From Paenibacillus sp. MBLB1832 (GTDB lineage Bacteria > Bacillota > Bacilli > Paenibacillales > NBRC-103111), in contig NZ_CP130319.1 of NCBI RefSeq assembly GCF_032271945.1, positions 2,065,001 to 2,129,000 on the forward strand: 64,000 nt of DNA, in the 5' to 3' direction. Position numbers and translations under genes: made by a program. Below the pieces are notes generated by a model that saw nothing but the letters and a program-made list of their open reading frames with translations, was not told where the DNA came from and ran no database searches. Positions 34,231 to 38,872 of the stretch are shown one piece after another (position 1 is the first letter of the stretch; each line of letters opens with the position of its first letter).

Positions 34231-34385
34231 TGCCTATGATGAAGATATCAACGACGAGCTTGCATCCTACTTTAATATTGGAATAGAGGGTGATCGGAAC
34301 AGAAAATCAAATATGTAATCGCTTACCAAGATGAGATTATCGGATATAGGTGGAGAGGTTTGCTTGTAATCTAAGGAGGAATACG

Positions 34386-37300
34386 ATGCGTATTTTGAAA
34401 AAAATAAGTTCTTCGATATCCATGGCAGCAATTGTCCTCAGTTTATGGAATCCTGGCGTTTCCCATGCGGCAACTCCGATCACGGATGCAAATTCATCGA
34501 TTTTCGGGCCTAATGTGTATGTGTTTGATCCTGATATGCCAGCAGCTGATATTCAAAGCGCAGCAAGTGCCGTATTTGTAAGACAAGAATCGAATGAATT
34601 TGGCACGGAACGAGATGCCTTCCTTTTCAAGCCAGGCACGTATAATGTGAATATTTTTGTTGGCTTTAATACGCAAGCGTCAGGTCTTGGGCAAAATCCG
34701 GACGATGTATTAATCAATGGCGGATTGAATGTCAACGCAGACTGGGATAATGGAAATGCAACACGCAACTTTTGGCGAGGGATTGAGAACTTGAGCATTA
34801 ACCCAACGTTCAATTATACACCACCAGCACCAGCGCACTTCTCAGCGGGGACGACGCAGATCGCGGTTTCGCAAGCGGCACCTCTTAGACGTCTGCATAT
34901 CAAAGGGAAATTGAATTTGTTTGATTTTGACAGCGGTTGGGGTGCAGGCTGGGCAAGCGGTGGTTTCCTCGCTGATTCCAAAGTTGACGGTCAAGTGATT
35001 CCAGCCTCACAGCAGCAATGGTTTTCCAGAAACAGTGAGTGGGCGAGCTGGTCGAATGGGGTTTGGAACATGGTTTTCGTCGGTGATAAGAATACGCCTA
35101 CAGGACAATTCCCAGATCCACCGTATACGGTCGTGCCGAATACATCTCTAATGCGCGAAAAGCCATATTTGTATCTCGACAATACGAATCAATACCAAGT
35201 GTTCGTACCTTCACTTTCGCAGAATACGCAAGGAACGAGTTGGGCGAATGGACCGACGCCAGGCACATCGATTCCAATCAGCCAGTTCCACATCGTTCGT
35301 GCGGATCAACCAAGTACATCAAGCGCAGCAAGCATTAATGCCGCATTAGCGGATGGGAAGAATTTGTTGTTTACACCAGGTATCTACCCCTTGAATGATA
35401 CAATTCGGATCAATAACGCGAATACAGTCGTACTCGGCATCGGGATGCCTACGCTAATCCCAACTACTGATAAACCAGCGATGAAGGTAGCCGATGTGGA
35501 TGGCGTGAAGCTTGCGGGACTGCTGTTTGAAGCGGGACCGAATGAAACGTCTTCGCTCGTCGAGGTAGGACCTGCCGGCAGTTCGGCGGATCATGCGGCA
35601 AATCCGACTTCGTTGCACGATTTATTTTTCCGTACAGGCGGTGCGGTCGTTGGTGAGAATTTAGCGCAAATGACGATCAACAGTGACGATGTGATTGGCG
35701 ATCATTTCTGGATGTGGCGTGCGGATCACGGTGCGGGTGCAGGCTGGACAGATAACGTTTCGAAAAACGGACTTGTCGTCAACGGCGATGATGTCACCCT
35801 ATACGGATTATTTAACGAGCATCACAACGAGTATCAAACGCTATGGAATGGGAACGGCGGACGTGTGTATTTCTATCAATCCGAAATTCCTTATGATGTT
35901 CCGAACCAAGCGGCATGGATGGATGGAAGCAAGAAAGGATTCGCCTCTTACAAAGTAGCGGATTCGGTTACGACCCATGAAGCATGGGGGCTTGGTGTGT
36001 ACTCCTATTTCAGAGATGCGGCTGTGAAGCTAGACAATGCGATTGAAGTGCCGATTGCAGCGGGCGTCAAGATTCATCATGCCACGACGATTTGGTTGAA
36101 CGGGACTGCTGGCAGTGAGATCACGCACATCGTGAACGGTGTCGGGGGCCGTGTCTATGGTACATCAGGCAGTGCGCAAAGACAGACGATAAATTTCTAT
36201 GGTACCGATGTTGGAGATACGGAAGCTCCGAGTGTGCCTACGACGCTAGTTGCGAAGGAAACTGCTTATGATCGCGTCAAAATCGGATGGAACGCATCGA
36301 CGGATAACCTCAATGTTGCGAGTTATGACGTGTATCGCGATGGTACGCTGATCGGTCATACAACCACAACGGAATATCTAGATATGGGTGTCCAGCCAAA
36401 GGCGACCTATAGCTATACGGTGAAAGCTGTAGATGGCGGCGGAAATCAATCCGCTTTCAGCAGCTCGTTAAGTGTAACGACTCCGAAGCGGGCGTTGGAT
36501 CGCTCAACATGGACGGGAACATCAACGTCTGCAGATCCTGTCTCGCGGCTTCTGGATGGCGATATGGGGACTCGCTGGAGCTCGGGCAAACCGATGTCGC
36601 CATCGCCAGAGCAATCCTTCACGATCGATATGAAGGTGCCAACGACGCTCAATGGCATTGAGATGGATTCCACCGGCAGCAATAATGACTATGCGCGTGG
36701 TTATGCGGTTTACGTCTCAATGGACGGCGTGACGTGGGGCAGTCCAATCGCCACAGGAACGGGCACGAACAAAATTATTACGGTTGAATTTGCCCCACAA
36801 GTAGCACGCTATCTCAAAGTCGTTCAAACGGGCACGAATTCCAGCTGGTGGTCCGTTCATGAAGTAAGAGCCTACGGCCTATTGCCAGCAACTGCCTCCA
36901 TCGACGGCCCTTCGATGGTCACGAGCGGTCAAACGTTCGATACGACGGTTAGTTTAGCGAATGTCGTGTCAGCTGTGTACGCGCAGGATATTCGTTTCAC
37001 TTATGACACCAGTTTACTGGAGTTCGTCTCAGTTGATTTCGTAAATCCAGCGATTTCGAAAGTGGGACAGTCGGACACGGCAGGCCAGCTTCGCTTCCTA
37101 ACAGCCAACCTATCCCAAGCTAATGTGAATGGTCCATTATTGACGCTGCATTGGAGAGCGAAGGCGCCAGCTGATAATGCTTCAACAACGATTACTCTTA
37201 CAAGTCTGGCACTAGCTGATTTGCAAACAGCGACGGGGCTCGGACCTGATTCCCAAGTTGTTCTCATTAAAGCAATCGTTGATTTGACGATCTTGAACGA

Positions 37301-37700
37301 TAAGATCACTGCTGCTCAATCCATTTACGATGGGGCTGTAGAGGGCTATGCGAATGGTCAATATGCACCTGGCTCGAAAACCGCCTTACTGTCCGCCATT
37401 AGTACGGCGAGAGCGGTTGTGGCGAATCCAGATGTGACAAGGGCTCAAGTTGCAGACGCGATTGCTGACCTTCAAGAAGCATTAAATCTCTTTGCAACGA
37501 TGAAGTATGTTGGAGATCCAGGCGATGTGAACAACGATGGCAACTTCACGGTCGTTGATTTGGCGAATGTGGTTGCAGCATATGGCAAAACATCTGCAGA
37601 TAGTGATTGGGCTCAATTTGCAAAAGCTGACTTCAACAAAGATGGCAAAGTGGATCTGGTTGACTTGGCGGCTGTTGCTCAGCGCATCCTTGCGGAATAG
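34386..37700 (+). CDS. Secreted multidomain GH55-like protein with FN3, F5/8-type C, cohesin, FIVAR and dockerin modules
   Basis: An 1104-residue secreted protein; ATG 6 nt after AAGGAGG. Signal peptide to about 30 (VSHA|A). Residues 35-605 match the beta-helical family often labelled 'adenylyl cyclase' or 'coagulation factor 5/8 domain protein' in actinomycetes and Paenibacillus (FGPNVYVFDPDMPAADIQS, LFKPGTYNV, SQQQWFSRNS, WNGNGGRVYFYQSEIPYD), which I take as GH55-like beta-1,3-glucanase. Then FN3 (611-698), F5/8 C carbohydrate-binding (701-832), cohesin (836-961), FIVAR helices (963-1038) and type-I dockerin (1043-1103) with two Ca loops (DVNNDGNFTVVDL, DFNKDGKVDLVDL). Cohesin and dockerin together in one enzyme is unusual. 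The next gene encodes a cohesin-SLH anchor. Confidence 0.8.
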   Translation: MRILKKISSSISMAAIVLSLWNPGVSHAATPITDANSSIFGPNVYVFDPDMPAADIQSAASAVFVRQESNEFGTERDAFLFKPGTYNVNIFVGFNTQASGLGQNPDDVLINGGLNVNADWDNGNATRNFWRGIENLSINPTFNYTPPAPAHFSAGTTQIAVSQAAPLRRLHIKGKLNLFDFDSGWGAGWASGGFLADSKVDGQVIPASQQQWFSRNSEWASWSNGVWNMVFVGDKNTPTGQFPDPPYTVVPNTSLMREKPYLYLDNTNQYQVFVPSLSQNTQGTSWANGPTPGTSIPISQFHIVRADQPSTSSAASINAALADGKNLLFTPGIYPLNDTIRINNANTVVLGIGMPTLIPTTDKPAMKVADVDGVKLAGLLFEAGPNETSSLVEVGPAGSSADHAANPTSLHDLFFRTGGAVVGENLAQMTINSDDVIGDHFWMWRADHGAGAGWTDNVSKNGLVVNGDDVTLYGLFNEHHNEYQTLWNGNGGRVYFYQSEIPYDVPNQAAWMDGSKKGFASYKVADSVTTHEAWGLGVYSYFRDAAVKLDNAIEVPIAAGVKIHHATTIWLNGTAGSEITHIVNGVGGRVYGTSGSAQRQTINFYGTDVGDTEAPSVPTTLVAKETAYDRVKIGWNASTDNLNVASYDVYRDGTLIGHTTTTEYLDMGVQPKATYSYTVKAVDGGGNQSAFSSSLSVTTPKRALDRSTWTGTSTSADPVSRLLDGDMGTRWSSGKPMSPSPEQSFTIDMKVPTTLNGIEMDSTGSNNDYARGYAVYVSMDGVTWGSPIATGTGTNKIITVEFAPQVARYLKVVQTGTNSSWWSVHEVRAYGLLPATASIDGPSMVTSGQTFDTTVSLANVVSAVYAQDIRFTYDTSLLEFVSVDFVNPAISKVGQSDTAGQLRFLTANLSQANVNGPLLTLHWRAKAPADNASTTITLTSLALADLQTATGLGPDSQVVLIKAIVDLTILNDKITAAQSIYDGAVEGYANGQYAPGSKTALLSAISTARAVVANPDVTRAQVADAIADLQEALNLFATMKYVGDPGDVNNDGNFTVVDLANVVAAYGKTSADSDWAQFAKADFNKDGKVDLVDLAAVAQRILAE

Positions 37701-37729
37701 GAATCATTGGTTTATGTAGGGTGAAACAT

Positions 37730-37765
37730 GCCCGCTATGATACATTTTGTAGTATAATAGCGGGC
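37730..37765 (+). repeat. Intercistronic hairpin between dockerin and cohesin-SLH genes
   Basis: GCCCGCTAT pairs with ATAGCGGGC, extended by ATAC/GTAT inside. No T-run follows, so the two genes may share a transcript with this as a partial stop or stability element. Confidence 0.5.
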
Positions 37766-37819
37766 GGTTCCGCCTTAGATAGCGTGTTACTGGGTAAACG
37801 CTGAAGGAGGAAATCGCAC

Positions 37820-38872
37820 ATGGTTATGCGCAAATGGTTGCACACCTGTCTATCTCTCGTAATCCTAATGAGTCTCATTTCTCCAACCGCAGCATGGGCC
37901 TCTGAGGCCAGTTCACCAAGTACGTATTCGATGGTTGTTTCAAATAAGCTGCCTGCCAAAGATGAAACGATTGAAGTCATCATAGTAGGTCATGCATTAG
38001 TGGATGTTTATGCTTTTGAAATTAATGTGGAGTACGATCCTACTAGGTTAACCTTTATAGATGCCAAAACGAGTGTACCTGGATTTTCGGTGCCGCCAAT
38101 TCTGAAGGATAAGCAGATTCAGCTTGCGCATACGCAAGTAGGGAAAGACAAGGGACTTGAAGGAGACCAAACGCTGATGAAGCTTCGCTTCAAAGCCCTG
38201 CAGAACGGGAAAGCGGAGGTGATTTTGCGCAATGTTCGAGTCGTTGACTCCAAACTTGTTAGCACTACGAAGTTGACTGATATGAGCACGATGTTGAACA
38301 TCCTTAGTACGCTGTCATTTGACGATATGGCCGATTTCGATTGGGCAATCGAAGCAATTGAAGCCTTAGCTGCTAAAGGCATTGTGAACGGAACGGGGGA
38401 CCGGACATTCAGTCCAGGTGCTGCTGTGACAAGAGCGGATTATCTCGTCTTGTTGATGAGAGCGCTTGGTTTGCAAGGTGGAGGCGGCGAGCCGTTTGCG
38501 GATGTTGATAACGAGGCTTACTACGCGCAGCCGATCGCTGCCGCAAGGGAGCTAGGCATCGTGCAAGGGGATGAGGGCAATCAGTTCCACCCGAAGGCGT
38601 CGATTACACGTGAAGATATGATGGTGCTGACCCATAGAGCTTTGCGAGCAACGAAGTACCTCCAGGCAGCGAGTAAGGTATCTGAGCTAGCCTCATTTGA
38701 CGATGCAGACACAATCTCGGATTATGCTGTCGAAAGCGTCGCGGCGCTCGTCGAAAGCGGTCTGATTCACGGCTTCGCGGATGGCATTCATCCGCAAGAA
38801 ACGACGAATCGCGCCCAGGCGGTTGTTCTCATTCATAACCTACTGACCTATATCCAAAAAGGTACTCGCTAA
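37820..38872 (+). CDS. Cohesin-SLH cell-surface anchoring protein
   Basis: A 350-residue secreted protein; ATG 10 nt after AGGAGG. Signal peptide to about 28 (AAWA|S). A cohesin fold occupies about 33-165 (STYSMVVSNKLPAKDETIEV, DVYAFEINVEYDPTRLTFID, LMKLRFKAL). Three SLH domains fill 172-345 (GIVNGTGDRTFSPGAAVTR, GIVQGDEGNQFHPKASITR, GLIHGFADGIHPQETTNR). SLH modules bind the secondary wall polymer, so the cohesin is displayed on the cell surface, ready to hold a dockerin protein. The neighbouring upstream gene encodes exactly such a dockerin protein. Confidence 0.88.
   Translation: MVMRKWLHTCLSLVILMSLISPTAAWASEASSPSTYSMVVSNKLPAKDETIEVIIVGHALVDVYAFEINVEYDPTRLTFIDAKTSVPGFSVPPILKDKQIQLAHTQVGKDKGLEGDQTLMKLRFKALQNGKAEVILRNVRVVDSKLVSTTKLTDMSTMLNILSTLSFDDMADFDWAIEAIEALAAKGIVNGTGDRTFSPGAAVTRADYLVLLMRALGLQGGGGEPFADVDNEAYYAQPIAAARELGIVQGDEGNQFHPKASITREDMMVLTHRALRATKYLQAASKVSELASFDDADTISDYAVESVAALVESGLIHGFADGIHPQETTNRAQAVVLIHNLLTYIQKGTR

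Follow-up and report, generated by a model that had tools for sequence, protein, structure and literature searches.

Classical cellulosomes depend on large, repetitive scaffoldins. As far as the available text of PMC11557425 goes, Paenibacillus guangzhouensis encodes 28 proteins with one dockerin and one cohesin each, often glycoside hydrolases, as well as five SLH anchors; its largest scaffoldin has two cohesins, and a cell surface rich in enzymes, different from a conventional cellulosome, is what its authors suggest. What looks like the same kind of system is encoded by a soil bacterium, Paenibacillus sp. MBLB1832, in a window of 64,000 nucleotides (NZ_CP130319.1, positions 2,065,001 to 2,129,000) where the gene of a secreted GH55 enzyme bearing both a cohesin and a dockerin is followed by the gene of a secreted anchor protein with a cohesin and three SLH repeats. 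Enzymes that combine dockerin and cohesin on one polypeptide and SLH-anchored cohesin proteins are thus common to both organisms. In its accessible part, the P. guangzhouensis account (PMC11557425) is without gene pairs, two cohesin classes, genus-wide counts, and an exchange between free, cis-anchored, and docked enzymes.

The enzyme-anchor pair is read here as the unit of a surface-display system, with a probability of roughly 55%; no multi-cohesin scaffoldin was found in this genome. The anchor, judging from family and fold, would be secreted and fixed to the wall through its SLH repeats, and its cohesin would capture the dockerin of the neighboring enzyme, which would place the glucanase on the cell surface. 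Less certainly, the cohesin of the enzyme could act as a socket and receive a dockerin from a second copy or from a different enzyme, such that enzymes may be strung outward from an anchor. A sequence-only reading of the locus had envisaged that the enzyme attaches to the wall and can recruit additional proteins with dockerins, a proposal with which the sequence evidence is consistent.

Other described systems share individual traits with this one. The cohesin-dockerin glycosidases of Clostridium perfringens (NagJ/NagH) likewise have (i) single enzyme-borne X82-type cohesins and (ii) FIVAR-dockerin tandems, both of which are found here. The available text of PMC12997984 reports one C. perfringens GH31 with both cohesin and dockerin, whereas here all nine dockerin enzymes of the genome carry both modules and have an associated cohesin-SLH gene; the C. 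perfringens paper makes no use of the term SLH. It also reports that AlphaFold3 or multimer prediction recovers known C. perfringens pairs. Dockerin enzymes, an SLH-held wall cohesin, and a type II-like anchor cohesin are shared with the Acetivibrio-type clostridial cellulosome as outlined in the portion of PMC11557425 at hand. ChiW of Paenibacillus sp. FPU-7 is, in the available part of PMC5132251, also a glycosidase displayed on the cell surface, but it bears SLH domains itself, while here they reside on a separate cohesin protein. S1 of Paenibacillus curdlanolyticus B-6 was rejected as a precedent, the part of its record that is available giving a sequence without cohesin or dockerin modules.

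Modules of the enzyme and the anchor

The 1104-residue secreted enzyme with its own cohesin and a two-loop dockerin, as first described from sequence, is borne out by both open reading frames (ORFs), by Pfam, and by the calcium loops. The dockerin scores 34 bits (cut-off 22.9) and has two canonical loops, DVNNDGNFTVVD and DFNKDGKVDLVD; the enzyme cohesin scores 41.8 bits (cut-off 24.1). The next gene, said to encode a cohesin followed by three SLH domains, does so, with 27.7 bits for the cohesin (same cut-off of 24.1) and 127.5 bits for SLH. Profiles built from other genomes return E-values of 9.2e-25 for the dockerin, 6.5e-34 for the enzyme cohesin, and 1.4e-41 for the anchor cohesin, and the modules are therefore far beyond chance.

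The designation glucanase also stands, as a GH55 beta-1,3-glucanase by homology. The catalytic domain matches 4pew with an E-value of 1.4e-172 (4.1e-173 in a second, aligned search), and the alignment keeps Glu512 and Tyr515 (positions by manual counting) as general acid and helper Tyr, the residues named for GH55 in the available text of PMC10637969, as well as the Glu-His pair that precedes the general acid. Homology to a solved GH55 and kept catalytic residues, the two marks of membership in the family, are thus both present at the sequence level. An alternative GTG start at 34350 would lengthen the enzyme to 1116 residues. Two of the intervening modules fall under their Pfam cut-offs: fn3 (residues 629-709; 20.1 bits, cut-off 25) and FIVAR (24.2 bits, cut-off 29.2), although the FIVAR-dockerin part (residues 978-1114) matches PDB 2jnk/2ozn with an E-value of 8.7e-10. 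The best match of the enzyme-cohesin family profile (A3) is 2jh2.

The anchor gene runs in the same direction as the enzyme gene, 119 bases downstream, and its product also starts with an apparent signal peptide (by eye). The anchor cohesin is a class apart from the enzyme cohesins and looks type II-like, as judged on a modelled orthologue. Among the matches of the predicted SLH fold are 6bt4 and SpaA entries, whose structures contain pyruvylated ligands. PF04230 has three matches in the genome, which are not specific to a pyruvylated wall polymer because the family also occurs in genomes such as that of Escherichia coli. With its cohesin and SLH domains, the anchor has the composition of an SLH-anchoring scaffoldin as defined in the available text of PMC11557425 (one or more cohesins plus SLH). 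In seven other anchors of the genome (L001-L004, L006, L008, and L009; about 580-610 residues), some 200 conserved residues that match nothing in Pfam separate the cohesin from the SLH repeats; this stretch is missing from the 350-residue anchor studied here.

Table 1. Features of the enzyme and anchor genes, in window positions. Pfam and PDB residue positions on the enzyme follow the 1116-residue numbering from the GTG at 34350.
Feature	Positions	Strand	Basis
Gene of secreted multimodular GH55 enzyme	34386..37700	+	ORF, ATG 34386 to stop 37700, 1104 residues
Putative enzyme signal peptide	34386..34469	+	By eye from sequence
GH55 catalytic domain	34500..36164	+	Residues 51-605 match 4pew
FN3-like domain	36225..36482	+	1k85, E 2.6e-10; Pfam fn3 below cut-off
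F5/8 type C (CBM32-like) domain	36525..36866	+	Pfam F5_F8_type_C 726-839, 71.8 bits
Enzyme-borne cohesin, C. perfringens NagJ (X82) kind	36891..37208	+	Pfam 848-953
FIVAR module	37281..37499	+	Pfam 1003-1046; within 2jnk/2ozn match
Dockerin, two canonical calcium loops	37518..37691	+	Pfam Dockerin_1 1057-1114
Hairpin between enzyme and anchor genes	37730..37765	+	Gap fold; hairpins in orthologue gaps
Gene of secreted cohesin-SLH anchor	37820..38872	+	ORF, 350 residues
Anchor cohesin	37910..38314	+	Pfam Cohesin, residues 46-149
Three SLH repeats	38315..38839	+	Pfam SLH, three stretches, 127.5 bits; 3pyw and 6bt4 matches

Free, cis-anchored, and docked GH55 relatives

Wall display is the best-supported role of the pair because GH55 relatives of the enzyme occur free, with SLH in cis, or docked with an anchor. 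With the enzyme as query, 56 loci were found, of which 53 are GH55; the other three (L093-L095) are dockerin-only matches and were dropped. A cohesin, plus a dockerin in frame or by tblastn match, is carried by 16 of the 53, and the anchor gene comes next in 12 of these docked loci and lies elsewhere in the cluster in one (L064). SLH is present on the enzyme itself in 7 of the 53. A tree was built from 53 catalytic domains: 17 docked ones, including the studied enzyme, 7 cis, and 29 free (L053 and L058, truncated at contig ends, count among the free; L091 is not in the tree). The three states need at least 7 changes on it, as compared to a shuffled mean of 20.7. P. curdlanolyticus YK9 has both a free and a cis copy (L052 and L062). 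The plain reading is that cohesin-dockerin and a separate anchor stand in for SLH in cis on GH55 enzymes, and no other line of evidence speaks as strongly for wall display.

Nine pairs in one genome

The description of the locus as a minimal scaffold does not hold, for the genome contains nine enzyme-anchor pairs. The search for further dockerin proteins that the sequence-only reading had suggested as a check yields nine in total, each of which also has a cohesin. The cohesin-SLH gene is directly next in eight of the nine dockerin loci and follows a CBM6/35-like gene in L006. In one anchor gene (L005:4873-6640), a frameshift separates the cohesin from the SLH portion, reflecting either decay or a sequencing error. 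Dockerin partners include GH2 (L003), GH5 (L008), heparinase-like (L004), and beta-helix proteins (L002, L005, and L009).

With Pfam alone, six of the nine dockerins exceed the cut-off, the dockerin of L004 has an E-value of 0.033, and those of L005 and L009 have no match. The own-genome profiles A1 (dockerin), A2 (anchor), and A3 (enzyme cohesin) contain rows from this genome and recover them by construction, so the scan was redone with profiles of other genomes only, the rows of which had originally been chosen using A1-A3. On the stretches of this genome that were covered, these find nine of each module, with E-values no worse than 1e-13 for dockerins, 1e-18 for enzyme cohesins, and 3e-18 for anchor cohesins. 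The genome-wide Pfam search gives 18 cohesins in 18 separate frames: nine on enzymes (those of L005, L006, and L009 are over the cut-off here, yet unlisted by hmmscan), eight on anchors, and one on an SLH-less protein of L007; the anchor cohesin of L004 is below the cut-off at 17.1 bits. Accordingly, no multi-cohesin protein of the classical scaffoldin type was found among the Pfam cohesins of the genome. A second dockerin family was not seen with PF00404 and the own profile, the models searched out of those that exist for dockerins.

Several further genes deserve mention. The SLH-less cohesin protein (L007:3138-4697) has Big_13 and a weak FIMAH match and is otherwise unpaired. A 117-residue ORF on the minus strand (L002:8798-9151) matches the second part of an enzyme-type cohesin (other-genome profile E 2.6e-14); no dockerin is seen with it, and it looks like a relic. 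Secreted proteins of about 465-470 residues with a weak CBM6/35-like end are encoded beside or between the enzyme and anchor genes (L004:9051-10463 and L006:5792-7189), and the product of L011:2020-3396 has a similar end. The dockerins of L004, L005, and L009 (in part that of L006), as well as those of L064 and L075, have a degenerate first calcium loop and a better-kept second; such dockerins may therefore bind in one orientation only.

Distribution and gene order in the genus

The supposition that this arrangement is unusual outside clostridia is wrong for this genus: dockerins and anchors are both present in 21 of 25 genomes (own included), and one species has already been described (PMC11557425). 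Of the remaining genomes, one has a single dockerin without an anchor and three lack both; an anchor on its own occurs in none. Outside the genus, dockerins occur in 3 of 15 genomes of the order, one of which has an anchor. This census takes as an anchor every profile match with an E-value of at most 1e-16, a few fragments included and SLH not being confirmed one by one. On this count, the dockerin to anchor ratio ranges from 9:8 in the own genome, where the split anchor scores just under the limit, to 92:8 in genome G023.

This joint gain and loss across the genus bears on the proposal that the cohesin-like domains bind no dockerin and act instead as structural or sugar-binding sandwiches, the gene pairing being due merely to co-regulation of secreted proteins. 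The low Pfam scores of the anchor cohesins (27.7 bits here and 17.1 in L004) would suit such domains, but their joint inheritance with dockerins, the predicted match of the modelled cohesins to those of solved dockerin complexes, and the conservation of the predicted binding face in anchors make the proposal improbable.

Gene order was assessed on anchor loci from a listing ranked by similarity to the anchors of this genome, and the counts that follow apply among the matches listed, from which 80 regions were fetched. A same-strand dockerin gene lies upstream of 97 of 124 distinct anchors (within 400 bases for 95) and downstream of 9. Of the 97 paired dockerin frames, 93 have a cohesin (E <1e-3); the exceptions are L064 and L123, whose frames are cut or short, and L038 and L039, which have none in about 400 residues. 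Several cohesin-dockerin genes cluster around one anchor in L064 and L075.

Could each enzyme simply serve one anchor, the dockerin binding only the neighboring anchor cohesin and the enzyme cohesin being a spacer or non-binding? The nine-to-nine gene pairing in this genome would be expected of such a design, as would L038 and L039, which have dockerin and anchor but no cohesin in the residues before the dockerin, and an enzyme-cohesin face that is no more conserved than the other sheet. Nevertheless, it appears unlikely. The 92 dockerins and 8 anchors of G023 mean that one anchor gene per enzyme is not the rule in every species, the cohesin is kept in 93 of 97 paired frames with two of the four others short or cut, and the enzyme cohesins are of a kind that binds dockerins in C. 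perfringens, according to the available text of PMC12997984. The 92:8 ratio would rather favor dockerin binding to both cohesin classes.

G023 (8 Mb) has 92-93 dockerin matches and 8 anchor matches, and 101 matches to the enzyme-cohesin profile, of which 5 are in anchor frames; one 1303-residue frame has two strong enzyme-cohesin matches. G040 carries L048 (Paenibacillus aceris), and since the match coordinates of G023 are identical, the two seem to be one assembly.

Which cohesin may receive the dockerin

Gene order, co-occurrence, the exchange between cis and docked forms, the single dockerin family seen with the models searched, and a conserved face favor the anchor cohesin as the socket. 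The predicted binding face, which is presumably formed by strands 8-3-6-5, is more conserved than the other sheet in anchor cohesins (2.02 vs 1.65 bits, p 0.02, 123 sequences). NagJ/NagH homology and weak covariation favor instead the cohesin of the enzyme itself.

Six observations weigh against the preferred reading, the last of them against the enzyme cohesin as a socket. (i) No anchor is present within the available flank of 3 of the 16 docked GH55 relatives (L044, L048, and L070). (ii) Among the matches listed, no adjoining dockerin gene was found for 12 of the 124 anchors (of these, at least L011 has an intervening gene, and L154 adjoins masked sequence), and 6 anchors have one on the opposite strand. 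(iii) Structure predictions, for which L065 of Paenibacillus sp. Soil766 was chosen as an orthologue since a single frame covers both of its genes, do not confidently place the dockerin, as judged from the predicted template modelling score (pTM) alone: the 668-residue construct (30 rows) has a predicted local distance difference test (pLDDT) of 82.4 and a pTM of 0.47, and the dockerin with the anchor cohesin (278 residues, 27 rows) a pLDDT of 78.1 and a pTM of 0.50. (iv) Covariation of the dockerin over 93 pairs, initially 0.56 with the anchor cohesin, 0.46 with SLH, and 0.61 with its own cohesin, falls to 0.07 for the anchor cohesin once FIVAR, SLH, and the own cohesin are controlled, and is higher, at 0.25, for the own-gene cohesin, a value confounded by linkage within one gene. 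(v) Homology predicts that the dockerin should fit an enzyme-type (NagJ-like) cohesin, the anchor cohesin being type II-like. (vi) The face of the enzyme cohesins is no more conserved than their other sheet (1.71 vs 1.96, 104 sequences). FIVAR, with which the controlled covariation of the dockerin is 0.41, served as the linkage control, a linker of that size being present in 70 of the 93 pairs. Covariation as support for anchor docking was dropped upon the decrease from 0.56 to 0.07 under this control.

Taken at face value, some of these points suit a soluble network in which the dockerin binds enzyme cohesins only, be they on the same enzyme or on others, and the anchor cohesin has a partner of another kind. 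A NagH-like dockerin and a NagJ-like cohesin on the same enzyme, the higher covariation with the own-gene cohesin (0.25 vs 0.07), and an anchor cohesin of another class are what such a network would show. Evidence against it comes from gene order and anchor-dockerin co-occurrence, from GH55 relatives with SLH in cis, and from the single dockerin family seen in the genome with PF00404 and the own profile (the models searched), while the covariation is confounded as noted; a network of this kind is rated slightly less likely still than the one-enzyme, one-anchor design.

Surface display through the anchor hence remains the preferred reading. A tentative extension, with the odds somewhat against it, is a self-scaffolding coat in which one dockerin family fits both the type II-like anchor cohesins and the X82-like enzyme cohesins, and chains of enzymes grow outward from few anchors, each enzyme serving as cargo and scaffold at once.

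A separate observation concerns the linker. Over 70 pairs, the anchor cohesin is tracked more closely by FIVAR distances (partial 0.27) than by dockerin distances (0.07). X modules contact cohesin in type II complexes, and by analogy FIVAR might contact the anchor cohesin.

Hairpin between the two genes

The 119-base gap between the enzyme and anchor genes folds well (z -3.58), with none of 200 shuffles as good. All five own-genome gaps of 70-119 bases, including this one, are well folded (z -3.6 to -5.1), a set that excludes three pairs with gaps of 4-12 bases and L006 with its intervening gene; seven orthologue gaps range from z -1.3 to -6.1. Pair gaps have a mean z of -2.93 (n=72, 34 below -3) vs -1.66 for control gaps (n=67, 14 below -3), with a p of 5e-5 that is too small because many rows are orthologues. 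A count by stem length did not separate pair gaps from controls (68/72 vs 57/67). Because the stems differ between species, RNAalifold yields a weak consensus (-0.99 kcal/mol, its covariation term being unfavorable). In clostridial cellulosome operons, intergenic hairpins set the ratio of gene products. By analogy, the hairpin may adjust the ratio of enzyme to anchor, and if the self-scaffolding coat is true, that ratio, perhaps set by the hairpin, would fix chain length.

Significance

The present analysis adds (i) the gene pairing, (ii) genus counts, (iii) the free/cis/docked exchange of GH55 enzymes, (iv) two cohesin classes, and (v) the hairpins. No report of enzyme-anchor gene pairing was found in the Paenibacillus cohesin/dockerin literature within reach of the search, which left most subscription journals outside. 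Like a classical cellulosome, the system has dockerin-bearing enzymes, nine in this genome; unlike one, it has no scaffoldin with several cohesins that could be found in this genome. It is not classed as a cellulosome because a multi-cohesin scaffoldin is a criterion of that class, even though, as far as its sequences suggest, it would work like a small surface cellulosome.

Since one enzyme occurs in free, cis, and docked forms, close relatives allow a direct comparison of what docking brings. If enzymes scaffold one another from small anchors, assembly size would be a matter of expression ratio, and few parts would be needed for a designer enzyme coat. The 92 dockerins and 8 anchors of a single genome would amount to a large set of cohesin-dockerin parts for a genus that is not commonly regarded as a cellulosome producer, and the recurrent pairing in this genome and across the genus suggests an enzyme coat built without the classical large scaffold protein.

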